From positions 67,122,140 to 67,186,139 of the forward strand of contig CM075858.1 of the NCBI GenBank assembly GCA_037975125.1: a stretch of DNA of 64,000 bases, in the 5' to 3' direction. The notes under the pieces were generated by a model, which saw nothing but the letters and a program-made list of their open reading frames with translations, made no database searches and was not told the origin of the DNA. Numbering within the stretch: position 1 is the stretch's first letter; every line of letters starts with the position of its first letter. Both the position numbers and the translations under genes were made by a program. The stretch is from Latrodectus hesperus. Its lineage: Eukaryota > Arthropoda > Arachnida > Araneae > Theridiidae. Positions 873-62,245 of the stretch are shown here, in pieces.

Positions 873-890
873 ATGAAGCGCGACCACAGG
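873..890 (+). CDS. Micro-exon 1 in window (18 nt)
   Basis: Acceptor CATTTTCAG and donor GTAAGT are both strong. In phase 1 it reads (x)AT GAA GCG CGA CCA CAG G, giving E-A-R-P-Q and a Gly completed by the next exon. The in-exon ATG is in another phase and is not the start, since that phase hits a stop in the Gly-rich exon at 9976. Confidence 0.7.
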
Positions 891-1003
891 GTAAGTAAAA
901 TAGTTTAATAATTTAAAGTTGTTTATTGTAAAATTTTTATTCTGATCATATAATATTGATTTCTATTAGGATTATTAATATATCCTTTTCTATGAAACTC
1001 TAG

Positions 1004-1009
1004 GAGAGG
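1004..1009 (+). CDS. 6-nt micro-exon
   Basis: GAGAGG lies between the acceptor CTCTAG and donor GTGAGT. It supplies Gly-Glu and ends in G, so the next exon (AA CCT...) begins with Glu. The intron before it is only 113 nt. Such a small exon needs transcript support; skipping it leaves the frame intact. Confidence 0.5.
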
Positions 1010-4000
1010 GTGAGTAAAATCTCTTTTTGTATAGATATTTGATCATCTTCAATATAAATAATTTTAAATAACTTTATTCATAGATAAATTATTATTTGAT
1101 TTAATCTTATATTATTTTTACCTATTTGCTATTTGCAAAACGATTTATTCAAATGATATTTGCATAATGTATATTTTAGTAATTTTCAGTGATTATACAA
1201 CTTTATTAATTATTGTATATAAGGAATTTCAATACTTAAAATATCATTTTATATAAATAAAATTATGTACATTGTATTAATATATTCATATTTCTTACAA
1301 TTTAAATACTAACTTATTTATATTTATCATGAAAAATAATTTGTATTTTATTAAAAAAATATATGTTCGAAATTGTTGATAAACGCTTACGTCATTTTTT
1401 ATGATGCGCATATACGTATATATAACGAATTTATACTTTAAGTTTTTGTTTGGAATACATGAAATAACGATTCGTCATGAACAGAAAAATTATTATTCAT
1501 TAAAATTAATGATTTAACGTTATTTCACATTTCTTTATTCAATAACTTATAACACTTTTTCTTCTTTTAAAATTTATTTAAATATTTATTCTTGATTTCA
1601 TACTTTGTAACATTTGCTTTTGTTATCGAATCCATTTTATTTGTCAGACGACGAGTGAGTAGCTTAGGTGGGGAAGGAAGAAATTCTTAAATTTATATTT
1701 ATATATATATACTGATATTTAAAGATTTATTTACAAATTAGATTATTTACAGACATCTTTAAGGTAGCTCCTTCATAGTGAGCTCCTTCACACACCATCT
1801 CCCCTCTGAATTACTTGTACATCTCTCTCTGCATGACATATTAAGCACTGCCATCTAGTGGCCACTAATTTTTTGAAATAATATTACAGCTTGATGCTAA
1901 CACTTTATTATCAGAAAAAAATTTAATTCTTTTACTTTCACCCTACTTTTTTCATTCTTTTATTTATGATAAATTTATAAAATAGTCAAAAATTTATTTA
2001 TTTCTCGACAAAATAAAAACATCTCGAATTTTAACTAAGTTAAAATATATTATAATTAAAAATTGAATATTTAAAATGAAACAAAAATTCAGACTTAATC
2101 TTTTTTAGGTGATTTTAAGAAACTAATAAACTTTGCAGTGCACTATTTGATAAATAATAATGTATATGACTACATTCTTATTATATTTATCAAAAACACC
2201 TTGTTAAAGAAAATAAGCTTACTATATATTTAATTCACATATAAATCATTCTTATGGATCGAAAAGGGGAAAATACTACACATCTAAAAAGTAAACAGGA
2301 GAAAACTCTTTATTATAAGCAACAATAAAATTCATTACTGCAAGCAATAAAATTTGAGCTTTTCTTTTGATTGTAAAGGTAAACATGTTTTTGGTATGCA
2401 AAGTTTGGTGCATTAAATTTTAATACACATTTATTATATGTTGTTCATTTTCCCACTAGAATTTTCAAGAGAAAATTGGTATATTTATTGACAGGTGTAA
2501 ACCATTAAAAAGTTGATTATTTTCGGTGAAAATAAATGTATGTTTCATTTCTAAAAAAAATAGAAGTAGTAGTTGGAGAAACCTTAGTGCGATTATCCCA
2601 CAAAAACATGAAGTGAAGAATAAGTGACTAATAAAACACAGTATAAAAACATTAAGCAAAAACTTTAGTGGAAACTCTAGTTATTTAGAATATTAGAATA
2701 AGATATAATACTTCAAGAAAACAGTCTGATTTCATGGAAAGGAAAATAGTTTTTGATTGGAAATTATGTCATTTGTTTAGTCTCTCTAAACATTGAAAAA
2801 GTTGCATATTTGCTCTGCATGGATGCAACAAAATTATAAATAAGACTTAAGAGAATTTTTTTATTTATAGAAATGTAGGCACCTGTGCTATTCTGGTACA
2901 GGAGCCGTATAATTCAGGATGCCAAATTTTAATTTTGGCGATTTTTTGGTGGATTTTCTTATGTGTTTGGCAACCTCATTTTTATTATGTCATACATTTG
3001 GAGAATTATGCAGAAAATTCTATTTTGGTAACCTAGTATCTACGTCATCACACACGTCACGATACATCATCTTCTCAACAATTCTTCATCGCCAAAAAAA
3101 TTCTGAATTTGGAATCATGGATTATATGGCACCTGTGCTAAAATGTGTTCTCTAGATAATGCAAGTAAGGCAATGTTAGAGATAGCAAAAAGGAATTACT
3201 CTCACTACAGTCTATTGTCAGAGTATATATCATGCAGATTCCGTTATATTAATAGGATATCCTGCTAGGATTACATATTTTATATATCTAGATTAATATT
3301 TTCAACAAGACAAATTTCATGAAGTTGCTCACTATCAAGAAGTAAAAATATATGATCAGAAGTGGCAGAGGAATAAGCTACGACATAAATCCTCCTTTTT
3401 TCGACTAGATAACTTTGATTCAACGGCGTATCATTTTAAAGTATATGTAAATCTGTGCATCTAATCATACTGATTCACGTGTTTACATTTACAAATTACA
3501 TTTATTTTATTAAAGAAAAGACAATGGTTTTCGTGCCTATAAGCTTGTATGCAAAACTTCGTGCTCCAAAGAATTTTAATAATTCCATTATTCATCTATT
3601 GTTTGAATAAATTAATCTTTTTGCTTTTTTAACGTTATTTCTGCATTTTTCTACCTTTTATTCTTTTAAATAAGGAATGTCTGTTAAACTACATAAAGTT
3701 TATATATTCATGTAAAAAAATATTCTTAAAAAGTGTGTTAAGTTTACAATTTTTTTTCATCCCACGTCAATCCTCGGCATATCTACCATTAATCGACGAG
3801 CAGCCCAATAAAAAGATGAACAAGTATAAAAACTTGAATAAAGTCCTTTAGTAGCCTCAAAAGAGATGTCAGTCATAAACTTTAAAACTTCAGGGCAGTT
3901 CTTGAGGTCAGCAGCATCCATATCATCATGACTGCACAATGGACAACGAGCAGAGTCCGTTACTTCTATTGATGCTGATCCGATGCTGATGCCTTTGTAG

Positions 4001-4950: not shown

Positions 4951-4971
4951 AACCTCATCGTCACCACCATG
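4951..4971 (+). CDS. Micro-exon, His-rich (21 nt)
   Basis: Follows acceptor CTTTTCATAG; the donor is GTAATG. Encodes E-P-H-R-H-H-H and the first base of Val. Together with the next exon it builds a His cluster, the first metal-binding-like feature of the product. Confidence 0.75.
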
Positions 4972-6623: not shown

Positions 6624-6785
<162 letters not shown>

Positions 6786-6786
6786 A

Positions 6787-8400
6787 TACAGGATTAGCAA
6801 GAAATAAGTTTCCCACTTCAGAGGGCTGTAGAATACGTTCTATTTGTCCAAATGAGATAAAATTTGAACTACAGATAATTCAAATGATGCGCTTGACATT
6901 TATTTAAAAAAAATAGTACAAAATTTTGCCAATAGATGGCGCTGTAAGACACATAAAAACATTTGATATGCTTAATAAATGTTAAATAATAATAATAAAA
7001 AAGTAGCATTACAATTGTTCAATATGCCCCCCTTCATTTTCAACAATGTGCTCTAATCGCAGAACCATATTTTCGACAACAGACCGGAGTGAGTCTGTCG
7101 GAGTTTCAAGGATATGGTGCCGAATGCTGTCCTTCAGATCTGGTACAGATGCTGACCTTTTACGGTAGAAATTGTCCTTCAAAAAACCCCACAACCAAAA
7201 GTCGCAGGGGGTGCTATCCGGCAAACGAGGAGGCTATGCCGTAGGGAAATGACGGCTGATAACCCGTGTCCCAGTAAAATGCTGTGTTAGCAGTTGCTTT
7301 ACACAACGATCAATATGAGGAGGTGCGCCATCCTGCATGAAAATGATTTCCTGAAGGCATCCACGCTGCTGAAGTTGTGGGATTACAAAATCCCTCAGCA
7401 TATCTTGGTACCGTTGTCCTGTGATCGAACAGGTTTTGATTCCATTTGCTGTTATCTCTTCAAAAAATATGGTCCAATCACAAAAGTAGCCGTAAACCCA
7501 CACCATACTGTCACTTTTTCAGGATGTAAGGGTTTCTCCTGGATAGCGCGAGGGTTTTCCGCTGCTCAAATTCGACAATTGTGGATGTTGACTTACAACA
7601 ATTGTGGATGTTGAAAGTGGGCTTCATCAGTCCACAGAATATTCCATGGCTAAGTATCAACCCCATTCGAGCAAGGAACTGAAGTGCAAAAGTTTTACGA
7701 ACCTCTGAGTCCCCGTCCTGCAACAAATACAGAAGCTTGATTTTGTAGGGATAAAAATGCAAAATCCGCCGTAAGATTTTTCGTACAGTGGAATACGGGA
7801 TATCCAATACACGAGAAACAACTGGCACACTCACACTACCATCCGGCGACTAACTGCTGGCTTCAACGACCACAGTAGCCACATTTTTGACGCTAGAGGA
7901 CTGGATTGGCTTTCGTCCTTTACCGGGAAGAATTGCAAGTTGTCCAGTTCTTTCAAATTTCTACATCATCTTGCTTAACGCACATAGAGACATTGGACCT
8001 CTTGGTATCTGCTTCATACGGCGAAATTCTTTTACAGCTGCAACGGAGTTCTGCTGGTTCTGGTAGAACAATTTTACAAGTAGCGCTTTTTCTTGCAAAG
8101 AAGGCATGATGTGCAGAGAAGTAACTAATGCTCCTTCAGAATCCGCCTTCTTTTCACCCAAAGATAATGATAATAGGCATGCGCTGTAAAGCAAATGACT
8201 TTTAATATTTTCAGTATATGCAAATAAATACCATTAGTATTACAGCGTCATCTATCGGCGAAATTTTGTACTATTCTTTTTTTTAATAAATGTCAAGCGC
8301 ATTATTTAAATTATCTGTAGTTCAAATTTTATCTCATTTGAAAAAATAGAACGTATTCTACAGCCCTCTGAAGTGGGAAACTTATTTCTTGCTAACCCTG
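6787..8400 (-). mobile_element. Tc1/mariner-superfamily element with 160-bp terminal inverted repeats (inactive)
   Basis: The first 160 nt (6787-6946) match the reverse complement of the last 160 nt (8241-8400) with few differences, both ends starting CAGGRTTAGC. TA lies at both flanks (6785 and 8401), as expected of the TA target duplication. The inside encodes a degenerate transposase on the minus strand. A (TA)n tract lies on each side, so the element sits within or has split a TA microsatellite. Confidence 0.9.
7009..8107 (-). pseudogene. Degenerate DUF4817/DDE_3-type transposase
   Basis: Starts at an ATG (8107) with MPSLQEKALLVKLFYQNQQN, an N-terminal helix-turn-helix of the DUF4817 type. 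Later segments include FMQDGAPPHIDRCVKQLL, the second catalytic-Asp region, and PDSTPCDFWLWGFLKDNFY near the third catalytic site; the protein ends HIVENEGGHIEQL. In-frame stops near 7961, 7852 and 7234, and a frameshift close to a 23-bp tandem duplication (around 7575-7614), disable it. The family is frequent in spider genomes, which supports the host assignment. Confidence 0.85.
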
Positions 8401-8558
<158 letters not shown>

Positions 8559-8893: not shown

Positions 8894-8911
8894 TTCATCA
8901 CCACCATCATG
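8894..8911 (+). CDS. Micro-exon, His-rich (18 nt)
   Basis: Acceptor TTATTACAG, donor GTATGT. In phase 1 it gives Val then five His and the first base of Gly. With the exon at 4951 this makes a run of H-H-H-V-H-H-H-H-H. Confidence 0.8.
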
Positions 8912-9975: not shown

Positions 9976-10317
9976 GTCATCCTGGTGGAGAAATAAAAAT
10001 TCCCGGCGGTAGTGGAAAGGTTGAAATACCAGGTGCTGGAGGAGAAGTTAAAATTCCAGGTGGTGGAGGAGAAGTTAAAATTCCAGGTGGTGGAGGAGAA
10101 GTTAAAATACCCGGTGGTGGTGGAGAAGTTAAAATCCCTGGAGGTGGTGAAAAAATTACAATTCCCGGTGCTAGTGGAGGGAAAGTTGAAATTCCCGGTG
10201 GTGGCGGTGAAGTTAAAATTCCTGGAGGAGGAGGAGAAGTTACAGTCCATGGAGGCGGTGGTGGTGGAGGAGGAGGAGGTGGTGAGGGTGGAAGACATAT
10301 ACATCATCATCATCACA
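9976..10317 (+). CDS. Gly-rich exon with 9-residue EVKIPGGGG repeats (342 nt)
   Basis: The only exon of ordinary size. It reads GHPGGEIKIPGG, then about ten near-copies of a 27-bp, 9-codon unit (E-V-K-I-P-G-G-G-G; variants KVEIPG, KITIPG, EVTVHG), a run of eleven Gly, and GRHIHHHHH. The final codon is split A|GT before the donor GTAAGT. Codon third positions vary between units while residues stay fixed, which points to selection on protein. The alternating charged/hydrophobic EVKI beside Gly-rich turns suggests short beta strands. The two His clusters flank it. I know no named family with this exact repeat; a structural or metal-binding role is inference. Confidence 0.85.
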
Positions 10318-15242: not shown

Positions 15243-15278
15243 GGCATAGAATTGAAGAACCAGGCAGACATGTTCACG
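15243..15278 (+). CDS. 12-residue module exon (36 nt)
   Basis: Acceptor CTTTTTTAG, donor GTGAGT. Encodes R-H-R-I-E-E-P-G-R-H-V-H in phase 1, first of the HVH modules. Its closest relative is the next exon 123 nt downstream, indicating local tandem duplication. Confidence 0.85.
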
Positions 15279-15401: not shown

Positions 15402-15437
15402 AACATAAAATTGAAGAACCTGGTAAACATGTACACA
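15402..15437 (+). CDS. 12-residue module exon (36 nt)
   Basis: Acceptor GTTTTTTATAG, donor GTAAGT. Encodes E-H-K-I-E-E-P-G-K-H-V-H. Against the preceding exon there are three synonymous changes and conservative Arg/Lys exchanges, as expected for selected coding sequence. Confidence 0.88.
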
Positions 15438-16178: not shown

Positions 16179-18098
16179 GTGAGGCATTTTTTGTCTTGTA
16201 GTTAAAAAATGCCAAAACCCAATATTAATTTCTAATTAAACATTAATTTACATTTGGAAAATATTTTGGATTTTTGAGGTTTTTGCATTTTAAAAAAGTG
16301 AATTGCTCACTGTCATTTTGAATGATAAAATTTCGATACATAGGAGCTTCTTATGAAAACATTTTCTTACATTTTAATGAAATTTATAATGTGAATTATT
16401 TTCAATGTTTGCACAAGCAAAGTAGCTTATAGAAACCGATCAAAAATATCTAATTTGAAAGTTTTACATTTAAATAAAAAAATGCACTAGTTTAATACAA
16501 ACCAGCTCATTACTTGATACAAAATTTAATTTACAATTGTTTATCTTAATAACTTTTTTTATTTGTTTGATGATTTTTCACTAGCTGAAAACTCTAATAG
16601 TTAAAATTATTATTAAATAAATTTAAAAATAAATAAATAAATAAAATTAAAAACTAAAATATCCACTATGTCATTATTTCCTTAGAGGAATTTTCCTTAA
16701 TAGTGAACTCAATTCGTTATATAATCCTCAGGATAAAAAAAAACAAAAATCTAAATATCTACTTTATAACAGACATGTGAGCAAAGTACAATCTTCATTA
16801 GAACTATGATGTACGGATGATGCATGCTCTTCAAATTAGAAGGTGCTGGGTTTTGAGTACTTTTGATGATAAGAGGTTGCTGCGTTTCTATATTATGCAC
16901 TCTTATGTTGGGGTACTTGTTTAAAAGTGGCACTTGAATCACCTCATTTGCGATACTAGAATTCAAATCTCTATCTATGAAACATTCTCCGTGGATACCG
17001 CAAAATCTTACAAAATCCTATGGTCTTTTTAACAGTTCACTATTCAGATTTAAATATCTATTTACAAACTTACAGACCCTTCTCTTCAGAGCAGAAAGAC
17101 ATGTATTCGAGCACAAAATTTATTGAAAGCACACAATAGATGGGACACTTATTCTCCCTACATTGGAATAGGTTCTAGGGAGTTTTATAGGGTTTCATTC
17201 CTTGAAACATCAGTATTGTCCAAAATATATGTAAAGTTCTTTTGGAATGTAATAAGCAGAAAGTATACGAAATGTCTTAGAATGACTTTCGGATATTGAG
17301 ATACCCGTTTCTAAGTGGGAATGTTTTCAAACATCAACTCCATTTTTGAACAACAGCTAGGATTGAACCCAATACTCTATTTTGTAAAGGTTGACTCTTA
17401 CACGAAGCCTCTGTGATTCTAAAATGTGCTACATATTATAATATTTCTAAATTAAGAAATATTACCATTTGACATTTTGTAATTAAGATTTAAAAAATTA
17501 TAATTTCTCTTACGCCTTTGATTATACATCGTCAAATATCTGACAGTTTTAAGTTTTCTAGCTGTATGATAACAAAAAGAAATGAAAAAAAAAATCCTCT
17601 TGGAAAATTTTATATAAAACTTTAATTTTATCTTCTCCATAGTGACTTCTATATTAATAAAAAATAATTCAATTCTACTTAGAAAAATCAAAAATATTGT
17701 GATGATTTCAAGAAAATTTCTTTAATACCTCTAATTAAACATCAAAAGGAAATTATTTTAGAAAGTAAGATAAGGGGAGTAAAATAATAATTAGATTTAC
17801 TGTATTACACAAATTGGATTCTTTTTTTTTAATTCAATAATCTTGAAAACTTTAGAAATCATTATTTTCCTATTTAAAGTAGTTTTGTATATTTCTGAGG
17901 AATAGTTGATTTTAAAATCATAGAATTAGAGAGGAATATTTTATAGGAAGTAGTTAATGTAGTAAATATTAAAAGTATGTTAATTTTTCATAAGTTTCAC
18001 TTCCCCAAAGAAATAGTTTTAAAATATGCTTATGACATTGATTAATTTTTTTTTTTTTTTGCTTAAAAAATACAAAAAATCTTTAAATTATTTTACTG

Positions 18099-18134
18099 AG
18101 TGCAAAATTGAAGTGCCAAGCAAACATGTTCATA
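18099..18134 (+). pseudogene. Dead copy of the 12-residue module exon
   Basis: Reads C-K-I-E-V-P-S-K-H-V-H in the module frame, but the acceptor has become CTG and the donor GT has become TA. The reading frame is still intact, suggesting loss of splicing came first. Confidence 0.75.
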
Positions 18135-18269: not shown

Positions 18270-18305
18270 CATACAAAACAGGAGAACCCGGCGTGCATGT
18301 TCACA
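18270..18305 (+). CDS. 12-residue module exon (36 nt)
   Basis: Acceptor TTTTTATAG, donor GTAAGT. Encodes T-Y-K-T-G-E-P-G-V-H-V-H. It lies 135 nt after the dead copy at 18099, the same spacing scale as the other recent duplicates. Confidence 0.88.
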
Positions 18306-19081
18306 GTAAGTATATATATGTCTTCTAAAAATCACAAATAAGTAAAAAAATAAAAGGATAAAGTAAAAGCATTATTATCTTTTTTTGGTAAAAGTAAATA
18401 AATTATATCTCTAAGTATCAATCTAAATTATTCTTTCTTACAAATTGTTTCAAAGGTGTACAAAGTGTTTATTCTTTAGTCCTTTATTAAAAAAAACAAG
18501 CTGTTTTTGTTTCAATATCCATTAAATTGAAAAACAACTACGTTTAAATCTATTTTATATAAAATTATACTTAATATAAATCAATTTCTATTCAGTGCAG
18601 AGAAATATTAATCACCAATAAGACGAAAGAATTAATGACATTTTTTAATTTTTTAAATCTTTAAATCTGTCTTTGTAATCTACAAATAAAAAATATAAAT
18701 AGACAATGAATTTTTAATTTATAAGGAAAAACACAATCTATTCCTATATGAAAATATTTATTGAAATACGAGTATACACACATTTATTTTTCATTAAAAT
18801 TTTGAAAGTGCGCTGAAAAGTTTGTACAAATATAATACTAACAAATGGAGTTTTATCCGAGACTGGAGCATTTACATAAAATACCTATGCAAATATAGAT
18901 TCGCATTTAAAATTTTTTATCAAAAGTAAAATATATCCACTATTGTTTTATTGTTATTTGTCAGATTTTCAACTCTTACAACTGCATTCGATAACGCTTA
19001 ATTGATAAATGTTGACTTACTTAAACCTTTTTGTTGAGATATTGAAGTCATATTTATAAAGAATATCTTTTATTTCCATTG

Positions 19082-19135
19082 AACACAAAACTGAAGAGCC
19101 CATTGTACGCGAGCATGGCAAAAATTATGTGTATC
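19082..19135 (+). pseudogene. Longer module exon with lost acceptor (54 nt)
   Basis: Reads E-H-K-T-E-E-P-I-V-R-E-H-G-K-N-Y-V-Y in phase 1 with a good donor GTAAGC and an open frame of 54 nt. The acceptor dinucleotide is TG instead of AG (TTTCCATTG). Either a recently disabled exon or a rare non-canonical acceptor. Confidence 0.6.
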
Positions 19136-21561
19136 GTAAGCAGGAATTCTAGATTTTTACTTAGTAATGCAGAAATAAAAAAGAAGTAGATATATTTATA
19201 TGATATCAATTTAAATGGTAAAATTTTCAAATATTGGTGAACTTTTTTTTTCTTTGTAAACTTTTATAAACAAAATATATTCCATTTTAAAACTTTAGGA
19301 TATCATAAAACGTACTATTTCATTATTTATTTCAAGTTCAAATAAAACTATCTTGAAAACCATTTTGAGCGGAACTTAGAACTCTTATACATCTTAAAGA
19401 AAGCAATAAAAATCATAATAATAAATCTAAATTAAAGTTGGAAATTTCATGCAATAATTATATTCTTTAGTGTTATTAAACTTTCGTTGTAAATTACTAG
19501 AAAAATTAATCAAAATATTTCAAACAGTTAAAATGAGAAGTAATTTAATCCAAAAATTTTTATTTGAGTAATGTTATTAATGACTTACTTCAATAATTAT
19601 CATTATATTGAATTGATAGTTATTTCATAATTACTTAAATGCTCTCTGCTAAGATATTGAAAATTTATTGGTCGAGTAGCATGTGGTTATTTTTAACAAA
19701 TTACATATATTCACCTACTAAAATTAATGTATCAATATTAATATTAACATTTTTTTAATATTAGATTGAGAAAACAATGAATTTATTACCTTTCTCACTC
19801 AAAAACTTAAATGTTTACGCATTTTATAGAATATGTGCTATTTGTCAAAAATTCTAAATAAGTATATGGTTTACAAAAATTTTTAAAAAATATCAATTAA
19901 TTTTGATAAAACAGTTATAGTTTTTCTTTTTATTAAGTTTTGATAATTTTATATAATACATGAGTAAATAAAAACTAAAGTGAATAATGTGTTATTGAAA
20001 TAAAAAAATAAAACATAGTCGTTTCAGTTTTTTATTTCTATGTTAAACGATGAATATTATGAGACCATATTTTCGAACAATGTTATTTCGAGCTTGATTT
20101 CAGACGATTTTATCTTTCGTCCAATGATGAAATCTGTTTTTAAATATTCTAAAAAATAGGTTTTCACGAAATTTAAAAAAAGTTATTTTTAAATACAATA
20201 ATATCAGAACCTACAAGCAAAATTTAGCAAACATCAGTTAATTTATTTATTGTTAATTACGTTTTGTATTTATATTAGCACTTAATAAGTGATATAAAAT
20301 TAAAAAAAATCAAATATATTAAAATAGTCAAAGAACTGTAGTATTTCTGTTATAGTTGGTTAAATATTTCTCCCTCATTATATTTATAATATAATATATT
20401 TTCACTATGGAATAATTATCTTTTTCTTACAATACGAATGCATATCGGAAAGAATTTAGATACTTCATATATAAATAGCATAAAATCTAATAATTTGCAA
20501 TAAAAATTTAATCATAATAATCATTTAATCATAATAACTATAAAAATAAAATGAATCTATATCAGAAGAATTGAAAAATAAAGAATTTCGTTACCAAATA
20601 TTGATTTAGAAAATACAATAAATCACAATTTTGTAACCAATATGAGTTTAATAAATTTAATAATTGATAAAATTGACATAAGTTATTTCGCAACTCAATA
20701 TAAATATTTTGAAGAAAGAATGACATTTTGCTGGATGAAAATTTTAAATTTAACAAACATTTCAAAATTTCTTTTGCAAGAGCTGAAGTTAAAGTATCTG
20801 CGAATAGAGTGATATATTGAAAACTGACGTACAAGTTCATGTTGAATTTTATTCATTTAAAATGGTTATTGGAATTATTTCTATTTACTATTTAATGAAT
20901 GAGGGAAGATCTGCATACAAAACATTTCAAAATCTTTCATCTATAAATATGTTAGAAATCTGTTTCTACTGAGCAGAAATAGAATAAAATTTAGTTTTGA
21001 CGAATAAAATGAAATATCTTCTAGAAAAATACATAATAAATCATAAACTGCTACTGAAACTAACCATTATAAATTGCTCTTTAAATTTGCGTTAAAAATT
21101 ATTTTTAAAAAAATGCAATGAGATTTCCAATTAAAAATATTATCATGAAACCTTGAGTCAAGAAAGATTTTTGAATAGTTTGATTATTTTATTGAATTAT
21201 TAAAACAATTTACCTTGATAAATAAAGAATATTGTTCACCAGTTCTTATACTGAAGATCTGAAGATCTTTTGTAGTTCTTTTCTAATCCCGTTTCTCTTT
21301 TTTTGTTTCAAGAAAAAGTTTAAGTTTTTAATTTATAATTAAATATTATAAAATATAAGTTGTATATAATATTTGATATTTAAGAACTGAAATCTTTTAA
21401 ATTTTGTGTTTAATTTATAATCCGCAATATGATGTCGCTTGCAAGTAGGATTTAATATTTGTTTAAAATAATAATATTACAATTTTTTTCTATTTATTTA
21501 ACAACTTTCATGAATTTTAATTACACTAGCAAATTAAGGAATTATATGTTTACTATTTTAA

Positions 21562-21597
21562 AATACAAAACAGGAAGACCAAATAAACACGTTCACA
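21562..21597 (+). pseudogene. Dead copy of the 12-residue module exon
   Basis: Reads x-Y-K-T-G-R-P-N-K-H-V-H with intact frame, but both the acceptor (TTTAAA) and the donor (GAAAGT) are gone. Confidence 0.75.
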
Positions 21598-21830
21598 GAA
21601 AGTAAATAATCTTTTTTAATCAAAAATACATGTGTGATCCAAATGTTTCCGATAAATATTACAATATAGATTTCAATTTAAAAATTTCATAAAATAACTT
21701 GAAATTAAGATTTAATATTTGCTTGAAAGGAAGTCATTGTATTATTGTATTTATTAAATTATTTACATAATTTTTGCTTGTAATGGTAAATCAAGAGAAA
21801 ACTATTTTAATATATGGTTTATTATTTTAG

Positions 21831-21863
21831 CATATGGAACAGGAGGTGGTAAACACGTTCACA
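21831..21863 (+). CDS. Short module exon (33 nt)
   Basis: Acceptor ATTATTTTAG, donor GTAAGT. Encodes [11 protein letters not shown], one residue shorter than the usual module. Confidence 0.85.
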
Positions 21864-21938
21864 GTAAGTAAAAATTCAATTTTTGAACTTAAAAATAGAT
21901 GTGTTAATCATGAGAATTTGTATAGTTTATGTTCTATA

Positions 21939-22147: not shown

Positions 22148-22186
22148 CTTACAAAACTGGAGGACCACCTAATGTAAACGTATATA
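22148..22186 (+). CDS. Variant module exon (39 nt)
   Basis: Acceptor TTTTTATAG, donor GTAAGC. Encodes [13 protein letters not shown]: the HVH end is replaced by N-V-N-V-Y. Confidence 0.85.
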
Positions 22187-22321
22187 GTAAGCAAATATAT
22201 ACATAAATACTTATTATCTTTGTGTACATTTGTGGAAAAATGCATCAAAATGTTTAAAGATAACTTCACATTTATAATTATCTGTACAAAATGTTTCAAT
22301 CGTTATTTTTTCTTTTTGTAG

Positions 22322-22357
22322 AATACAAAACTGGTGAACCTGATGTACATGTTCACA
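22322..22357 (+). CDS. 12-residue module exon (36 nt)
   Basis: Acceptor TTTTTGTAG, donor GTAAGT. Encodes K-Y-K-T-G-E-P-D-V-H-V-H, close to the consensus of the series. Confidence 0.9.
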
Positions 22358-22575
22358 GTAAGTAAATATTTAAATTAAGATTATTTAAAAACTTAATGAA
22401 AAAACGCATAACACAATTTGTTTCATTATACTCCTGACCCTAAAAAAATAGATTTTTTCTAAATTAAGTATTTACAAAGCATATAAACTATATAATCACT
22501 TAAAGATCACTTTTTGAAATTATGATTTAAAAAATGTTATATAAAATGTTTTAATTCTCATTGGTATTTTTATAG

Positions 22576-22611
22576 AATACGAAACTAAAGAACCTGATGT
22601 ACATGTTCACA
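22576..22611 (+). CDS. 12-residue module exon (36 nt)
   Basis: Acceptor TTTTTATAG, donor GTAAGT. Encodes K-Y-E-T-K-E-P-D-V-H-V-H. The last 22 nt of the exon and the start of the intron match the exon at 22322, so the two arose by recent tandem duplication of about 250 bp. Confidence 0.9.
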
Positions 22612-22963
22612 GTAAGTAACTATTTCATTGAAGATTCTAAAACATTTTAATGAAAAAATAGCTATTGTACTGGAGAAAGCTTATTTTACGAGGACTATAA
22701 AAATTTTCATTTGTAATAAGCATAAAATTCAGATTTATAATAAGCATTTTTTTTCAAAAAGTATTAAAAATGTGTGTAATTTTGCATTTATCTAAAAATT
22801 AAACTTTGATAAAAAAAAAAATATTAAAATTTGGAATTCTTGTATTCCTTATACTTCATTGCATTATCTATTTTTTATTTTAAAGTTTATAGTATTTAAA
22901 TATGAATACTAAAAGGGACAATTAGATGCATTATTTCATTGCAAATAATTGTTTTATTTCCAG

Positions 22964-22996
22964 AATACAAAACTGGTGGTGATCTAAATGTTCATA
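22964..22996 (+). pseudogene. Module exon with mutated donor (33 nt)
   Basis: Good acceptor TTTATTTCCAG and open frame K-Y-K-T-G-G-D-L-N-V-H, but the donor reads ATAAGG where GTAAGG is expected: a single G-to-A change at the first intron base. Probably skipped in this allele. Confidence 0.65.
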
Positions 22997-23180
22997 ATAA
23001 GGAAATATTTTATATTCGTTCTTTTAATAAAATAATAATCATTGACTAAAATATATTTCATTAGTGAAATAAATATTTGTTATTTTGATTTAATTTTATA
23101 TTTTCGAATATTATTATTAAATCATAATAATCACATAAATTATGTTAAATAATGTTTGAAAATGATTACTTTGCTTGCAG

Positions 23181-23228
23181 AATACAAAACCGGCAAAGAT
23201 GTAGATGTAAAAGATGTAGATGTTAAAA
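23181..23228 (+). CDS. Extended module exon (48 nt)
   Basis: Acceptor TTTGCTTGCAG, donor GTAAGC. Encodes K-Y-K-T-G then K-D-V-D-V-K-D-V-D-V-K: the HVH core is replaced by an internally duplicated acidic DVDVK. Confidence 0.85.
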
Positions 23229-25721: not shown

Positions 25722-25766
25722 AAGAGAATAAGGGACCAGAACTCCCCAAATTTAAAAGACTACGAG
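25722..25766 (+). CDS. Linker micro-exon (45 nt)
   Basis: Acceptor TTTCTTTTTAG, donor GTAAGT. Encodes K-E-N-K-G-P-E-L-P-K-F-K-R-L-R, a strongly basic stretch that closes the HVH module zone. Whether KRLR serves as a protease site is unknown. Confidence 0.82.
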
Positions 25767-26383
25767 GTAAGTTTAATTAATGATTTAAAACTATACAAAC
25801 ATTCTAATTTTTATAATAGCTCTGTCGTGAAGCTAAATTAAAGTTGTACTTTTTACAGTTTTTTGTTGATTATTTCTATATTAAATTAGAGACACTTGAA
25901 GTTTATTATTCATTATAAAATGCAGATATTGAAAGAATAAAAACACTTTATATTTTCTTCATTCAACTAAATTATTCGGAAACCAAATATCTTCAGAAGA
26001 TATATAGTTTTTTACATTTCTTTAATTACTATCCTTTGATTTTTGATATCAAATTATAGCTGAAAATTCATTTCAATATTATTTTTTCAAGAATCGTTCA
26101 AACTGAGGTTGTTGAATACAGTTATAGATATATAACGGCATATTACAATAGATATCATTTTTCATTGTTTTCAATACAAATACAAAACTTTAAATTTTAT
26201 ACATGCTTTTTTGCTGCTTCTACTTTCTTCAGACTTTTAAAATGCTCATTTATTCAAATTCAATATTTAATATATGGGCTTCTATGGCATAAAATAATGA
26301 AAGACTAATTTTCTAATACATTGAAGAAATTAAAAATTAGAATAAAATAAATACAAGTAGACTAATATCTACTCAAATTGCAG

Positions 26384-26419
26384 CGTACGCAATCATGGCA
26401 ATTTGCGCAATTTCAATCA
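26384..26419 (+). CDS. Candidate 36-nt hydrophobic module exon
   Basis: Acceptor AAATTGCAG, donor GTAAAT, 36 nt, phase-1 symmetric and open: A-Y-A-I-M-A-I-C-A-I-S-I. The size equals the 12-residue modules but the sequence is hydrophobic. The pyrimidine tract is weak and the donor only fair, so it may be an alternative or decayed exon. Confidence 0.45.
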
Positions 26420-26713
26420 GTAAATATATTTCTTTAATTATTTTGAGCATATTTTCTTTAATTATTTTGAGCAACATTTTAGCAACATTCAACATTTAGT
26501 TATATTCAAAATTTTTCATTTCAACTTAAAATTTTTATATCTAAATATATGCTTGACAACATTGAGTGAATATTTAATAATTTTGCTGTAGCTGAGTTAC
26601 TTTTATTTTAAAATTAATGGGAAAAAAATTTGCATGTAGAAACCTAAACATGAAAAGATCCCTAGTAAAAACGTAGGTGCGTTAGAAAATGAATATATAT
26701 GCATTTGTATATA

Positions 26714-27042
<329 letters not shown>

Positions 27043-27217
27043 GACATCATTCCCAATGAAATTTTGCATATGAGAAAGGAAAAAATATAAAACTTTAACA
27101 TTTGCTGTTGCAATAATAAATTCGATGGATACTGATCATAAGAAGTTAGTTAATTGATTAAGTCTTTATTTTTCAACTATGAAATTTTTTTAAAAAATAC
27201 TTTTTTATTTATTATAG

Positions 27218-27232
27218 GCGAAGACTGTAACA
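27218..27232 (+). CDS. 15-nt micro-exon
   Basis: Acceptor TTATTATAG, donor GTAAGT. Encodes G-E-D-C-N; one of only two Cys seen in the supported exons. Confidence 0.7.
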
Positions 27233-27339
27233 GTAAGTAATATATTTAATGTATAGTTTATATATAAGTTAATTTAATGTATAGTTTTTCATGATAAGTA
27301 TGATTTTTGACATTTAAATTTCAATATTTAATATTTTAG

Positions 27340-27354
27340 GAGGCTTGATCGACA
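27340..27354 (+). CDS. 15-nt micro-exon
   Basis: Acceptor AATATTTTAG, donor GTAAGT, after an intron of 107 nt. Encodes R-G-L-I-D. Confidence 0.75.
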
Positions 27355-29185
27355 GTAAGTATCATTTTATTTCATTTTTATGACATATACGAGTCATTAC
27401 TAAGTCTATTACTTTTATATGGCTGTTACTAAGTCAATGCATATAAAACTTGAAAGGATTGTAAACGTTTGTATGAGTTAAACATGTTAAAATATTTTAT
27501 TATAAAAATTCCATTTCGTGAAATTTACCAAGAAAGATCATAAAGATTAATGTTAATTGGTATCGAACTTTTTAATGCCTAGCTATGTTATAAAGCCTAA
27601 ATAAAATAAATATAATGAATAATATAATCTTTCAACTAATACTTTAAAAAAATTGTGTAGCATAGACAAGCATCACAGTCAAACAATAATAAATATTTCA
27701 TCAATTGTTCAAACTGCGTGTTTGTGATGATATGTCATGGGTAATGCTACTCGCCTCATTGACTTGATTCACGTGTGCCCACTGGGTAACGATAAATGAG
27801 TAACTGTTTCCAGCTTTGTTGTGGTGAAGGGTCAGTCCCTCAATGCCCGCCGTTGTTAAAAAAAATTGTTCAAACCAATTCATAGTTTGTGCAAGTTGAA
27901 TTTGGTGAGGCTTTTTGAAGCATAAAATGTTAACTTTAAAACAAACTATTAAATGGAATTCATTTGTAAAAATTATAACAATTTTATCCCCAAATCATTG
28001 ATTCTTTGGGGAAAAATTCCTCCACATCATTTACTTTATTAGAGAAGAATTCTGTAAAATATAAATATAACATAAAGAAATTTTTACTTTATAACTTAAA
28101 CTCCATAAATTTATAGATACTATGTAGGAAAAATATTTCTAGAATCTGATAATGTGATTTGAAAGAAATACGTCTCTTTCTAACCAATTCTATATTTTTT
28201 GGATATTTACCGAATTTATTCTTTTTATAATTAGAACACTATCAAGAAGAATCTGATAATGTAATGCATTTGAAAAAAATACGCCTCTTTCTTATTCTCT
28301 ATTTTTTTAACATTTATGGAATTTATTCTTTGAATAATTGAAACACTATTAAGAATCTGAATTGTTAGTTATTGACTATTATAGGATTGTTATAGATGGA
28401 ATTTTTAATTATAAATTATTTTATGACTGAGAAATTTAAATTTAATCAACCTTTTTTAATGCATTTTATTTTTAAACATTTTGGTATCTACTTTCTTCAA
28501 TGCAATTTATTATATGAATTCCCAAATTTTATTCCTAGTGGGTTGCGCAAACTATATTGGAAGTGATTCCAAATATGAAAATAATTTATCAGCATAGCTA
28601 TCAGAATGCATGATAAAACGATAATTTAAAGTGTATTTGAATTCTTAAAAAGCAAAATAAAAAACAAATCTTAAGCTCATAAACTTAAGAGTTGTTTCTT
28701 AGGAATTATATATTTCACTCTTTCAATGTAATAATAAAATGAAACTAGAGTATCCTTATGGTTTATATAATAGCTTATATAATTTGTAAATTATAGAAAT
28801 ATTAATTCTTTCTTCAATTTAGCAGTCTATATTGAAGATTATAGATTGTTAGATTTGAAAAAGAAATTAATTTTAATCCTTTTGTTTGTTTTAGCTATTA
28901 GTTTTAGTTTAAAAAGTATAATTTTTAAAAGTAAACCAGAATGTAACCTTGAAAAAGTTTTCTGTTCATCTCGCTGTAAATAAATTTATTTTACAGTGCA
29001 ATTATATACCATTTAAATGTGAGTTTAGTGAAATCATGTATATTTAATAGTCAATTATATTAAACAATATACGTTTTCTTTAAGAAAAAATGATACTTCA
29101 GTAATTAAGATATTATGAAAACTATTCATTAAAAATATGAAAATTTCAATAAGCATAAATCTAACTTAAAAATTTAAATTTTCAG
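27355..29185 (+). other. Intron (1.8 kb)
   Basis: Mostly AT-rich. A GC-richer block at about 27700-27890 with an unbroken minus-strand frame of 60 codons looks like an inserted repeat fragment, but I cannot name it. Confidence 0.5.
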
Positions 29186-29200
29186 AGGCTGCTCGTTTTG
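29186..29200 (+). CDS. 15-nt micro-exon
   Basis: Acceptor AATTTTCAG, donor GTAAGT. Encodes K-A-A-R-F. Perhaps the second half of a first, irregular 11-residue repeat with the preceding exon. Confidence 0.78.
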
Positions 29201-31662: not shown

Positions 31663-31842
31663 TATATTTTCACGTTATAATATCCTCAAAAAATGGAAAT
31701 TATAATAAAACATACACAAACACACACACAACAAAAATATATATTTACTATTTCGTTTGAATATATGTAAATTAACATATATTATGGTATGTACCATTAA
31801 TTAATTGATCATTTTATCTTAACATATTTCGCTTTTATACAG

Positions 31843-31860
31843 CTGGACATACGCTTAATG
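31843..31860 (+). CDS. 18-nt micro-exon, hendecad first half
   Basis: Acceptor TTTTATACAG, donor GTAAGC. Encodes A-G-H-T-L-N. From here 18- and 15-nt exons alternate to the end of the gene. Confidence 0.8.
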
Positions 31861-34459: not shown

Positions 34460-34474
34460 ATGCTGCTAGCGGAC
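34460..34474 (+). CDS. 15-nt micro-exon, hendecad second half
   Basis: Acceptor TTCTTTTTAG, donor GTAAGT. Encodes D-A-A-S-G. Twelve of 15 bases equal the exon at 45562 (D-A-A-C-G), showing duplication across 11 kb. Confidence 0.85.
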
Positions 34475-36931: not shown

Positions 36932-36949
36932 TTGAAAACCTTGTTAGTC
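36932..36949 (+). CDS. 18-nt micro-exon, hendecad first half
   Basis: Acceptor TATATTTAG, donor GTAAGT. Encodes L-E-N-L-V-S; the Leu codon is completed by the C from the exon at 34460. Confidence 0.85.
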
Positions 36950-39612: not shown

Positions 39613-39624
39613 GAATCGCACCTG
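39613..39624 (+). CDS. 12-nt micro-exon, hendecad second half
   Basis: Acceptor TTTTGCTTATAG, donor GTAAGA. Encodes R-I-A-P, one residue short of the usual five. Confidence 0.75.
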
Positions 39625-40636: not shown

Positions 40637-40997
<361 letters not shown>

Positions 40998-41083: not shown

Positions 41084-41101
41084 AACATGGGCTAGTGAAC
41101 A
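41084..41101 (+). CDS. 18-nt micro-exon, hendecad first half
   Basis: Acceptor GTGTATTGCAG, donor GTAAGT. Encodes E-H-G-L-V-N; Glu replaces the usual first hydrophobic residue. Confidence 0.82.
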
Positions 41102-41670: not shown

Positions 41671-41685
41671 ATGTTGGAAAAGGAT
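41671..41685 (+). CDS. 15-nt micro-exon, hendecad second half
   Basis: Acceptor TCTCATTTCAG, donor GTAAGA. Encodes N-V-G-K-G. Confidence 0.83.
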
Positions 41686-42600: not shown

Positions 42601-42618
42601 TGGATGCACTGTTTGAAT
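42601..42618 (+). CDS. 18-nt micro-exon, hendecad first half
   Basis: Acceptor TTACTTTTAG, donor GTAAGT. Encodes L-D-A-L-F-E. Confidence 0.85.
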
Positions 42619-43001: not shown

Positions 43002-43016
43002 ACGGCATCAGGGGAA
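43002..43016 (+). CDS. 15-nt micro-exon, hendecad second half
   Basis: Acceptor TTTTGTTTCCAG, donor GTAAGT. Encodes Y-G-I-R-G. Confidence 0.83.
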
Positions 43017-43691: not shown

Positions 43692-43709
43692 TAAAGAGAG
43701 GATTAGATG
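43692..43709 (+). CDS. 18-nt micro-exon, hendecad first half
   Basis: Acceptor CTTTTTTATAG, donor GTAAGT. Encodes I-K-R-G-L-D. Read alone the exon begins TAA, but the split codon gives ATA (Ile). Confidence 0.82.
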
Positions 43710-45561: not shown

Positions 45562-45576
45562 ATGCTGCTTGTGGAT
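45562..45576 (+). CDS. 15-nt micro-exon, hendecad second half
   Basis: Acceptor TTCTTTTAAAG, donor GTAAGT. Encodes D-A-A-C-G, a near-copy of the exon at 34460, and carries the second Cys of the product. Confidence 0.82.
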
Positions 45577-51240: not shown

Positions 51241-51561
<321 letters not shown>

Positions 51562-51740: not shown

Positions 51741-51758
51741 TGGGCAGTATTGCAAATG
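51741..51758 (+). CDS. 18-nt micro-exon, hendecad first half
   Basis: Acceptor CTATTTTCAG, donor GTAAGG. Encodes L-G-S-I-A-N, near the consensus and similar to L-G-N-I-G-R at 58277. Confidence 0.85.
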
Positions 51759-52571: not shown

Positions 52572-52586
52572 CAATTGCTAGTGGAA
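52572..52586 (+). CDS. 15-nt micro-exon, hendecad second half
   Basis: Acceptor TTTATTTGCAG, donor GTAGGT. Encodes A-I-A-S-G, similar to S-I-A-S-D at 60227. Confidence 0.82.
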
Positions 52587-53243: not shown

Positions 53244-53252
53244 TTGATGAGG
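53244..53252 (+). CDS. 9-nt micro-exon
   Basis: Acceptor TTTACTTATAG, donor GTAAGT. Encodes I-D-E. It stands where an 18-nt exon is expected and, with the 3-nt exon at 55369, gives four of the six residues. Confidence 0.68.
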
Positions 53253-55368: not shown

Positions 55369-55371
55369 GAG
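55369..55371 (+). CDS. Putative 3-nt micro-exon
   Basis: A strong pyrimidine tract and acceptor (TTTTTTTCATTTTCAATTCAG) is followed by GAG and then donor GTAAGC. Spliced in, it adds exactly one Gly and keeps phase 1. It could instead be a recursive splice site that leaves nothing in the mRNA. Confidence 0.5.
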
Positions 55372-55845: not shown

Positions 55846-55860
55846 ATTTGACTGGAGGAG
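55846..55860 (+). CDS. 15-nt micro-exon, hendecad second half
   Basis: Acceptor ATCATACATAG, donor GTAAGT. Encodes D-L-T-G-G. Confidence 0.82.
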
Positions 55861-56110: not shown

Positions 56111-56128
56111 TTAAAGAAGTTGCTCATG
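56111..56128 (+). CDS. 18-nt micro-exon, hendecad first half
   Basis: Acceptor CATTCTTTCAG, donor GTGAGT. Encodes V-K-E-V-A-H. Confidence 0.85.
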
Positions 56129-56204: not shown

Positions 56205-56267
56205 ATTGCTTTTCTATACATAAATCATTGCTTTTCTATACATTGCTTTTCTAACATTGCTTTTCTA
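56205..56267. repeat. Short tandem repeat of CATTGCTTTTCTA units
   Basis: Four imperfect copies of a CATTGCTTTTCTAtA unit lie next to each other, directly before the hairpin at 56268. Confidence 0.85.
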
Positions 56268-56692: not shown

Positions 56693-56707
56693 AATTCTTT
56701 GGTGGCC
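56693..56707 (+). CDS. 15-nt micro-exon, hendecad second half
   Basis: Acceptor TTCCTTTAG, donor GTAAGT. Encodes E-F-F-G-G. Confidence 0.84.
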
Positions 56708-58276: not shown

Positions 58277-58294
58277 TTGGAAATATTGGAAGAG
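58277..58294 (+). CDS. 18-nt micro-exon, hendecad first half
   Basis: Acceptor CCAATTTCAG, donor GTAAGT. Encodes L-G-N-I-G-R. Confidence 0.85.
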
Positions 58295-59042: not shown

Positions 59043-59057
59043 ACGTTGCCTCAGCAT
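59043..59057 (+). CDS. 15-nt micro-exon, hendecad second half
   Basis: Acceptor TATTCTATTATAG, donor GTAAGA. Encodes D-V-A-S-A, with Ala in place of the usual final Gly. Confidence 0.83.
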
Positions 59058-59911: not shown

Positions 59912-59929
59912 TTTCAAATGCAGCAGAAA
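59912..59929 (+). CDS. 18-nt micro-exon, hendecad first half
   Basis: Acceptor TATTTTTCCAG, donor GTAAGT. Encodes F-S-N-A-A-E. Confidence 0.84.
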
Positions 59930-60226: not shown

Positions 60227-60241
60227 GCATTGCAAGTGATT
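60227..60241 (+). CDS. 15-nt micro-exon, hendecad second half
   Basis: Acceptor ATTTTTTCAG, donor GTAAGT. Encodes S-I-A-S-D. It ends in T, so joining directly to the exon at 62093 (GA...) would create TGA at once. Confidence 0.84.
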
Positions 60242-60873
60242 GTAAGTAGTTTTAAATAATACAAAGATATACTATTTTGTTAATGTTTGGTTATTTAGTT
60301 TATTTTAAATTTTAATTCAGCAAAATGATGAACAATTAAATTTTTTGAATAGTTGAATAGTTTTTGAATATTTTTTGAACTAGTTAAAACCAACATTTGA
60401 AAAAGAATATTTATGCTATCCACAAATGCAGGATGAATATCATAGATATCTAATTTAAGTAAAAGAAAATAAAATTTTCAATTTTTATTATAATATTTTG
60501 ATAATTTTAAAAATATCTGAAATGATTTAAAATTATAAATTCATTCTATTTTGTAATTTCAATTTTCCAACGTAATTAAATTTAAATGTTATATATTTAG
60601 ATTCAAATTTGTTTATTTATTCCTTAACATATTAAAAAATATACAAATAAAATTGCTTTTAATATTATAAGAGGAAAAAATGCCTTTCATGTAAATATTA
60701 TATTTACATAGTAAACATTTTAAGAGAAAGCTATAAATAGACTAAGACTTCGATCATAATAGCTTGAACTCAAATCATAACCAAGGTTCATGTTAAAATT
60801 TCATCATATTTCACTGTAAAATTTCAATAAAGTACTAAAATAAATTTTAGCTAACAATTTTTCTTATTTTTAG

Positions 60874-60923
60874 TCCAAAATCTAGGATAACTGCAGAAAA
60901 TATTTAACCAAATATTCATATCT
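60874..60923 (+). CDS. Stop-containing exon (50 nt)
   Basis: Acceptor TTATTTTTAG. Reads F-Q-N-L-G then TAA at 60888-60890. The F-Q-N-L-G matches the first half of the 11-residue repeat, and the stop falls exactly at the sixth position, so it looks like a former 18-nt exon. Untranslated sequence follows to a strong donor GTAAGT at 60924. Confidence 0.8.
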
Positions 60924-62092
60924 GTAAGTATATTTTCCCAGTGTATTATTTAAAATTGATTAAAATAATTAAATTAATTATTTTTAAATCTCTGAAGTAT
61001 TGTCTTAATTCAAGAATTCTTAGTGACTAATTTCTTGTCTTAGTAATAATATTTAAACGAAAAATGATCATAATAATAGATTGATTTTTAATAAGCTCTT
61101 AAATATTTCACCTTGATTTTTCTAGAAATTTATCAGTAAAAAATATTTCACTCTTAAATACGGCCAAAAAATCAAGTAATGCAACAAATTAATGGCAATA
61201 AAAACATCAGATAATGTTAAGAATCAAAAATAATTTTAAAACAATTGAAATTTAAAATATAGGAATATTTGTTTTTATTGTCATTTTAAAAGTACAATCT
61301 TTGTAAAACTTGAAAGATTTGTAGAGAATTAAATATGCAAGGTACATTTCAAGTCACATTTACGATAAGTCTCCAAGCCTTTAAATATATTTTCGAAAAC
61401 CCAATTAAAATAGTCTTCAATCATTTAAATGAACTAACTTTGAAAATTTACAAATGATAAGCATTCTAAAAAATTCTTGATATCTTTCTAGAAAGTAATT
61501 AATAACTTCAATAATAAATTGGTTCTATGTATCCAAACTTTAATAATAAATTAATTCTTTGTTCAAATTAAAATAAAATAATATATTTTGCATGTAATCA
61601 ATTATTTATAAATTACTTTTTGTTGCACCATTAGTAGGTATATCTTTTTAGCGATACAATTTCATTACAACCAATTTTCAAATAACTTGATTGCTGATTA
61701 CATAAATCTAAATATTTGTCAGCAAATCGACTTGATCGTTTTGCCACATAATATAAGCAAATGTAGAGAATGAATAGCTTTAAAAATATTATATCGATAA
61801 AATTTTAAATATTTCACTGACGTAAATTTGCTATGTAAAGTTTTTTTTACTGTAGCATTAAATAGAGCATAATAAAAAGTTATAATGTATAAAAGTCTGA
61901 TATTGTATTGAAATATGAAGATGTATATATCATGTATAATCCCAATAAATAGTATGTATCAAATATTTGCAATGTATTTACCACCATATATATCTCAATA
62001 AAAATTCCTTAAATATCATAATTTAATTTCATTTCATTTTTTTATGAACAAAATTGTGAATTTAAATGTACCTTTTTATATTTTGCTTTCAG
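60924..62092 (+). other. Intron in the 3' untranslated region (1.2 kb)
   Basis: Lies between the donor GTAAGT and the acceptor TTTTGCTTTCAG. AT-rich; nothing else seen. If real it places an exon junction 33 nt after the stop codon. Confidence 0.6.
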
Positions 62093-62245
62093 GAATAGAT
62101 GGAACTGCAAAAAACGATGAAATTATTGAAGAATACTCCATTATATATTTTACTTACTAGTCTTCAATGAAATTTTATAGATAAATTCTTGTATTATACT
62201 GTAGAAACATTAATTTGTGAAATAAAGTGAAGCAATTACTGCTTA
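62093..62245 (+). other. Terminal exon, mainly 3' untranslated
   Basis: Acceptor CTTTCAG, with an AATAAA at 62221. In phase 1 it is open for 22 codons (I-D-G-T-A-K-N-D-E-I-I-E-E-Y-S-I-I-Y-F-T-Y, TAG at 62158), so an alternative C terminus is possible if both exons 60227 and 60874 are skipped. The 3' end is estimated from the signal. Confidence 0.6.
62221..62226 (+). terminator. Polyadenylation signal AATAAA
   Basis: Canonical hexamer about 60 nt after the end of the open part of the last exon and 128 nt after its acceptor; the best candidate 3' end of the micro-exon gene. Confidence 0.7.

Follow-up and report, generated by a model that had tools for sequence, protein, structure and literature searches.

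A candidate micro-exon gene with 39 coding exons over about 61 kb in the spider Latrodectus hesperus

The window analysed here is a 64,000-nucleotide (nt) stretch of the genome of the spider Latrodectus hesperus (Araneae, Theridiidae; assembly GCA_037975125.1, contig CM075858.1, forward-strand positions 67,122,140 to 67,186,139). By a splice-site scan and chaining, 39 coding exons are found in it, extending from position 873 to a TAA in the exon at 60874-60923 (Table 1; exons are named by their first position). Their predicted joined frame is 377 codons long, and there are no stops inside the exons or at the joints. A first-pass annotation, made from the letters of this DNA, had described 39 coding exons, one exon of the 3' untranslated region (UTR), about 377 codons, and a TAA within the series, and all of these were found in their places. 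Judged from its sequence, the locus is likely a working spider protein-coding gene, with 39 coding exons over ~61 kb and predicted splicing to one 377-codon frame.

From 5' to 3' the exons are 18, 6, 21, 18, 342, 36, 36, 36, 33, 39, 36, 36, 48, and 45 nt long. These are followed by 24 exons of 3-18 nt (the array) and then by the 50-nt stop exon. The description of the gene as made almost entirely of 3- to 48-nt exons fits 37 of the 38 complete coding exons, the single exception being 9976-10317 (342 nt). All 38 are multiples of three and share one phase, which is partly by construction because the frame guides the chain. Each complete exon begins at codon position 2 and ends on the first position of a codon, which makes it a phase-neutral cassette. 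The 39 introns range from 107 to 6164 nt (median 915), and GTAAG or GTGAG (GTRAG) is found at 36 of the 39 donors. Three modules can be distinguished: a His/Gly-rich 5' part, eight exons of ~36 nt, and the 24 exons of 3-18 nt. His accounts for 9 of the 20 residues of the N-terminal segment and 14 of the 100 residues of the HVH segment, and Gly for 48 of the 114 residues of the long exon. Since the long exon is itself a tandem repeat (27 nt, 9.5 copies, at 9983-10242), the gene seems to grow by repeats within an exon as well as by exon cassettes.

Table 1. Exons of the candidate gene and decayed exon copies in the window
Feature	Positions	Strand	nt	Residues	Evidence or remark
First coding exon found	873..890	+	18	xEARPQ	acceptor 10.4, donor 12.2 bits; frame test; entered in phase 1
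Tentative coding exon	1004..1009	+	6	GE	acceptor -1.8 (weak), donor 9.9 bits
Coding exon	4951..4971	+	21	EPHRHHH	acceptor 6.5, donor 1.0 (weak) bits; frame test
Coding exon	8894..8911	+	18	VHHHHH	acceptor 8.0, donor 5.5 bits; frame test
Long coding exon	9976..10317	+	342	GGEVKIPGG-like units (27-nt tandem repeat), poly-Gly, poly-His	
36-nt class exon	15243..15278	+		RHRIEEPGRHVH	scan, chain, profile search
36-nt class exon	15402..15437	+		EHKIEEPGKHVH	scan, chain, profile search
Weak match, probable decayed copy	18091..18133	+			nhmmer E 0.041; no border acceptor or donor >0 bits
36-nt class exon	18270..18305	+		TYKTGEPGVHVH	scan, chain, profile search
Weak match, probable decayed copy	19068..19147	+			nhmmer E 0.016; acceptor lost, 9.4-bit donor left at 19135
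Clear decayed copy	21546..21612	+			nhmmer E 3.2e-9; no acceptor left, donor of just 4.8 bits and displaced by a few bases
36-nt class exon	21831..21863	+	33		scan, chain, profile search
36-nt class exon	22148..22186	+	39		scan, chain, profile search
36-nt class exon	22322..22357	+		KYKTGEPDVHVH	scan, chain, profile search
36-nt class exon	22576..22611	+		KYETKEPDVHVH	scan, chain, profile search
Clear decayed copy	22950..23013	+			nhmmer E 7.1e-9; acceptor kept (10.9 bits), donor lost
36-nt class exon	23181..23228	+	48	KYKTGKDVDVKDVDVK	scan, chain, profile search
Linker exon	25722..25766	+	45	KENKGPELPKFKRLR	splice-site scan, chain
Array exon	27218..27232	+	15	GEDCN	scan, chain
Array exon	27340..27354	+	15	RGLID	scan, chain
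Array exon	29186..29200	+	15	KAARF	scan, chain
Array exon	31843..31860	+	18	AGHTLN	scan, chain
Array exon	34460..34474	+	15	DAASG	scan, chain, register test
Array exon	36932..36949	+	18	LENLVS	scan, chain, register test
Array exon	39613..39624	+	12	RIAP	scan, chain, register test
Array exon	41084..41101	+	18	EHGLVN	scan, chain, register test
Array exon	41671..41685	+	15	NVGKG	scan, chain, register test
Array exon	42601..42618	+	18	LDALFE	scan, chain, register test
Array exon	43002..43016	+	15	YGIRG	scan, chain, register test
Array exon	43692..43709	+	18	IKRGLD	scan, chain, register test
Array exon	45562..45576	+	15	DAACG	scan, chain, register test
Array exon	51741..51758	+	18	LGSIAN	scan, chain, register test
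Array exon	52572..52586	+	15	AIASG	scan, chain, register test
Array exon	53244..53252	+	9	IDE	scan, chain, register test
Array exon	55369..55371	+	3	adds one Gly	acceptor 7.5, donor 11.7 bits
Array exon	55846..55860	+	15	DLTGG	scan, chain, register test
Array exon	56111..56128	+	18	VKEVAH	scan, chain, register test
Array exon	56693..56707	+	15	EFFGG	scan, chain, register test
Array exon	58277..58294	+	18	LGNIGR	scan, chain, register test
Array exon	59043..59057	+	15	DVASA	scan, chain, register test
Array exon	59912..59929	+	18	FSNAAE	scan, chain, register test
Array exon	60227..60241	+	15	SIASD	scan, chain, register test
Stop exon	60874..60923	+	50	FQNLG, TAA, then 3' UTR	acceptor 12.0, donor 11.9 bits
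Terminal 3' UTR exon	62093..62245	+			acceptor 10.1 bits; AATAAA 62221-62226; 3' end approximate

The window was scanned for acceptor-donor pairs first with a hand-set consensus and then with weight matrices trained on 34 exons of the chain, which also give the splice-site scores in bits, and the pairs were chained by frame. The first chain had 41 exons. Removal of 198-254 and 1648-1654 left 377 codons in one phase, and the later frame test agrees with this. Weak sites are found in exons 1004 and 4951 (Table 1), at the acceptor of exon 55846 (2.9 bits), and at the donors of exons 41671 and 59043 (5.9 and 4.8 bits).

Exons this short are easily picked by eye, and splice-like motifs might be paired by chance in AT-rich DNA. 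The probability of this is negligible in our view, given the both-strand and shuffle controls, the frame test, and the repeat register test that oppose it. On the + strand there are 49 generic consensus pairs with a distance of 6-60 nt, vs 19 on the - strand, and 200 dinucleotide shuffles give 16.2 +/- 4.5 (maximum 29). Pairs whose length is a multiple of three number 34 on the + strand, 5 on the - strand, and 5.7 on average in the shuffles (maximum 13); those open in phase 1 are 29 and 3 on the two strands, respectively. With hand-set scores and a penalty of 6.0, the chain finder scores 59.5 on the + strand, 4.6 on the - strand, and 7.2 on average in 40 shuffles (maximum 14.5). At a penalty of 6.5 the scores are 43.2 on the + strand vs 1.8 on the - strand, and 26 of the 28 picked exons belong to the chain; with laxer settings chain exons make up 28 of 36 picks (6.0) and 31 of 50 (5.5). 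The + strand has 23 copies of GTAAGTA, of which 20 are donors of the chain, and the - strand has 4. The corresponding numbers for GTAAG are 72 (33 in the chain) and 32. Donors of at least 9.9 bits number 41 on the + strand (33 in the chain) and 5 on the - strand, a count that is partly circular because the matrix was trained on 34 chain exons. Eight orphan donors of this strength (37868, 55187, 39471, 36874, 35369, 12369, 506, and 4368) were inspected, and none was added. Word counts around the 34 exons have T-rich words on top and no clear enhancer, no specific motif having been tested.

In the frame test, each exon was scored by positional base composition in a leave-one-out manner. The 342-nt exon was never in the training set, and each exon of the 36-nt class was scored with that entire class removed from training. 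The chain frame is preferred by 36 of the 39 exons, and random pieces choose that frame in 680 of 1965 cases. G+C content by codon position is 67/44/20% in the exons from 4951 on (long exon included), and the window mean is 25%. It is 44% in array exons and 16% in their intron flanks. The joined array has no stop in the chain frame and 7 and 15 stops in the other two, and when window pieces of matching lengths are joined at random, 0 of 20000 joins stay open. Decayed exon copies (described below) and some weak splice sites would suit a decaying, untranscribed relic, but 377 stop-free codons, the openness of every joint, and strong sites in most exons make such a relic very improbable. A single micro-exon gene in one frame, as the first-pass annotation had it, is the best reading of the locus.

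The eight live exons of the 36-nt class (33-48 nt) encode Y-K-T-G-E-P-x-V-H-V-H-like units. An nhmmer profile made from them recovers all eight and then four lower matches, the next match having E 0.84. Two clear and two weak, probable decayed copies are interspersed among the live exons. The surroundings of live exon 21831 have a duplicate, in which the decayed copy 21546 sits, and 21438-21635 matches 21698-21904 (211-bp match, 70%). Another duplicated pair of flanks is 22285-22404 with 22540-22658 (120 bp, 80%). The spacing between duplicated segments is ~255-269 bp. Because the flanking intron is common to the copies, exon and intron were duplicated together. The five exons of equal length (36 nt) differ at 99 of 360 compared sites, and their flanks, compared without gaps, differ at 56%. 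Note that the loss of a splice site deletes a cassette and leaves the frame unharmed.

In the array, one 15-nt and one 18-nt exon encode one 11-residue amphipathic unit. Ten rows of this unit, set by exon borders, are DAASG-LENLVS, RIAP-EHGLVN, NVGKG-LDALFE, YGIRG-IKRGLD, DAACG-LGSIAN, AIASG-IDEG, DLTGG-VKEVAH, EFFGG-LGNIGR, DVASA-FSNAAE, and SIASD-FQNLG, where the RIAP and IDEG rows were gapped manually. The first four array exons (27218-31860) are not built on this unit, and the register test does not include them. Mean hydrophobicity is high in columns 2, 6, 9, and 10 (0.80 to 1.03), 0.67 in column 3, 0.34 in column 5, and negative in columns 1, 4, 7, 8, and 11; column 5 is Gly in 7 of 9 cases. 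The between-column share of hydrophobicity variance is 0.599. In 5000 global shuffles it averages 0.095 (maximum 0.333), and in 5000 within-exon shuffles 0.100 (maximum 0.301). The choice of splice sites would not produce such a match of exon pair and repeat. The first-pass annotation had nearly every 18-nt exon beginning with L, I, V, or F; in the array this holds for seven of the nine and fails for the other two. Columns 6, 9, 10, and 2 are spaced like the core positions of a hendecad coiled coil. Helical periodicity stands out at 3.5 and 3.6 residues, with p between 0.0004 and 0.007 over four tests. For the 3-nt exon 55369, a pair of this strength occurs once on the + strand and never on the - strand, and its chance expectation in the intron is ~7e-5. 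Blastn matches between array flanks (e.g., of 34460 and 45562) do not stand out from the remaining AT-rich matches, so that only the protein register points to duplication in the array.

At the 5' end, exons 873 and 1004 together favour phase 1 over phase 0 by 6.4 nats in the frame test. Exon 873 has ATG as its first letters, and since it is better read in phase 1 it does not begin with this ATG. The start of the gene, with any signal peptide, is most likely upstream of the window. A signal peptide from a hydrophobic open reading frame (ORF) with an ATG at 198 (exon 198-254) was rejected for its donor of -4.9 bits. At position 255 there is a strong acceptor (10.4 bits) with GT right behind it, and the orphan donor at 506 has 10.4 bits; these may represent a 5' UTR exon or a recursive splice site. 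The 7-nt exon 1648-1654 (acceptor 4.6, donor 8.7 bits) was dropped because it would put exons 873 and 1004 in phase 0, against the 6.4 nats. Counting against this choice, it is the sole 7-nt pair of such strength on the + strand, with none on the - strand, and it is perhaps an alternative 5' exon.

Several observations weigh against a working gene with a helical array. Three exons (27340, 41084, and 42601) prefer a frame other than that of the chain, and no start exon with a usable donor is found in 1-872. In the five 36-nt exons, differences at the three codon positions are 24, 36, and 39 of 120; as this rise is mild, there is little evidence of purifying selection on this class. The 11/3 period is weak in the array protein (whole tail, p 0.037; core, p 0.34) and periods of 11 and 5.5 give no signal. 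This is attributed to short units, since two of the repeat units have fewer than 11 residues and would shift the register. Gly makes up 21 of the 127 residues of the tail, which is unusual in a stable helix. Protein searches, which need shared 5-residue words, gave a single match (E 0.34, taken as chance) for a 398-residue query, for which scoring was confined to the 7991 candidates with the most words in common, and no match at E <= 10 among 538 candidates for a 242-residue query. Because spider proteins are present in the database and none match, the gene is either unannotated or too diverged for a word-based search. In addition, the joined protein, incomplete at its N-terminus, has no Pfam family at E <= 1; the best E is 0.53 among solved structures and 0.036 in NCBIfam, the latter below its cut-off.

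Two further points of this kind concern the intron 25767-27217. Within it, a 9.8-bit acceptor at 25859 precedes an in-phase stop and words of the form A[AT]TAAA; further on, an ATG at 26395 opens a frame that runs to a donor at 26419 (6.2 bits) with the correct phase. Exon class and protein character also switch between 25766 and 27218, as expected if two adjacent micro-exon genes, one His/Gly-rich and ending after 25766, the other helical and starting before 27218, were present. However, there is no donor of at least 8 bits between 25766 and 27218, and the eight residues encoded by the start-like exon (MAICAISI) do not suffice for a signal peptide. Terminal-like sites are found in 12 of 38 introns, and because 3 of 38 have terminal-like and then start-like sites in that order, the site pair is weak evidence. 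The phase is identical on both sides of this intron. We consider two genes improbable.

Some introns carry mobile elements. The 3' part of a long interspersed nuclear element with an RNase H domain lies at 32646-33747 (ORF 32938-33744). Among the best 120 of 305 matches listed for this ORF, the first comes from Trichonephila clavipes (95% of the query aligned at 66% identity), and others, lower in rank, are from Araneus ventricosus, Parasteatoda tepidariorum, Uloborus diversus, and one pseudoscorpion. By these matches the host is likely an araneoid spider, although a mobile element indicates this only indirectly. A Tc1/mariner-like element at 6709-8480 has long inverted ends with adjoining (TA)n tracts; its - strand frames are split into several ORFs, and a helix-turn-helix match is below cut-off. 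A second transposon, on the - strand at 30389-31646, also has several ORFs, and its part 30389-30715 matches DDE_3. Intronic (TA)n and (TG)n microsatellites of up to 355 bp lie at 40640-40994, 51243-51561, and 26693-27039.

How such a gene might work can be outlined. The length of the protein would have changed through gain and loss of in-frame cassettes, and near-consensus donors (GTAAGT) together with T-rich acceptors may compensate for exons too short for ordinary exon definition. The product could be a secreted structural protein, secretion being a guess because no start or signal-peptide exon is found within the window. The HVH and poly-His segments might bind a metal such as zinc or copper, with which their composition fits, the Gly-rich segments might form beta-type repeats, and the C-terminal amphipathic helix might drive self-assembly or membrane contact. 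Instead of a constitutive scaffold, the gene could be a generator of variation like the micro-exon genes (MEGs) of flatworms, with alternatively spliced cassettes and many in-frame isoforms. Any subset of exons joins in frame because all complete coding exons are phase-neutral, and such use of small symmetrical exons is described for MEGs (PMC4350168; here and below, papers are cited for the parts of their text concerned). Near-consensus donors in most exons (36 of 39 with GTRAG) speak for inclusion, and omission of one exon of a pair would break the 11-residue register. We consider a variation generator rather unlikely.

Taken together, the locus may represent a third independent animal origin of a micro-exon gene, in spiders. 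With five or six residues to an exon, a 15-nt and an 18-nt cassette would form one 11-residue unit of an amphipathic helix, and cassette gain, loss, and optional splicing would adjust how long a secreted structural protein is and how it binds metal. This full proposal is tentative and somewhat less likely than not. The flatworm and aphid-group micro-exon genes both encode secreted proteins at the host interface (PMC4350168, PMC9168663). If the proposal is true, this would be the first such gene known in an animal without a parasitic or plant-manipulating way of life, and a non-parasitic spider gene of the same layout would show that the layout arises for other reasons. An exon pair that equals one helical repeat unit offers a clean case for asking if exon borders follow protein repeats, and exons of 3, 6, and 9 nt beside kilobase introns are a hard test of tiny-exon recognition. 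Automatic annotation has difficulty with genes of this kind, and a class of proteins is therefore probably missing from spider gene sets.

Compared with known genes, this one has a known layout in a new variant, in an animal group for which literature searches found no report: no spider micro-exon gene is among the titles retrieved, two of the broader listings saying little. It resembles spidroins in its spider origin and internal Gly-rich tandem repeats, and differs in that its joined protein, incomplete at the N-terminus, gives no match of any kind in Pfam at E <= 1, a search also used to look for spidroin terminal domains. Spidroins have long repetitive exons, the opposite of the present layout. 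Metal-hardened proteins of fangs and jaws are His- and Gly-rich, a likeness in composition only. For layout, the first-pass annotation had named the MEGs of schistosomes. These are indeed among the closest, but not alone, since the bicycle genes of aphids share the start of internal exons at codon position 2.

MEG exons are 3-81 nt long, mostly multiples of three, and mostly of 15 nt (PMC10526429), and MEGs are described as apparently restricted to platyhelminths (PMC4350168). Like them, the spider gene has its coding region mostly in very small symmetrical exons separated by long introns, and their commonest exon size, 15 nt, is one of its two main sizes. While MEGs have 10-20 exons and introns of up to ~5 kb, here there are 39 coding exons over 61 kb and introns of up to 6.2 kb. 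The host, a spider, is also different, as is the protein, which is Gly/His-rich with an 11-residue amphipathic repeat and has no sequence match found. MEGs are further marked by a signal-peptide exon at the N-terminus and by alternative splicing of their central exons; in the spider window, 1-872 yielded no start exon with a usable donor.

Bicycle genes occur in aphids, phylloxerans, and scale insects, and nearly all of their internal exons begin at codon position 2 (PMC9168663). The spider gene likewise has many micro-exons, and its complete exons start at codon position 2. The bicycle structural classifier, with its coefficients taken literally from PMC9168663, gives a logit of +21.95 with an incomplete first exon. 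This value is high because 37 exons have that phase; it is a statement on layout only and probably lies outside the training range. The identical phase and this logit (about +22) might suggest a divergent member of the aphid bicycle family, through deep homology or transfer. The spider-type intronic retroelement, the absence of a CYC motif (two isolated Cys in 377 residues), and the lack of a sequence match speak against it, and the authors report no homologs in three outgroups (PMC9168663). We consider membership extremely improbable. Bicycle proteins are marked by a saposin-like, all-helical fold and by CYC motifs. Note that the CYC motif is absent from some bicycle proteins as well (PMC13041983). 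The candidate gene differs from bicycle genes in lacking this motif and in its non-hemipteran host. Megacycle genes, found in aphids only, have >100 micro-exons over ~100 kb and grew by internal duplication (PMC9168663). The spider gene shares this mode of growth, and it differs from both bicycle and megacycle genes in its unit, which is 11 residues on two exons.

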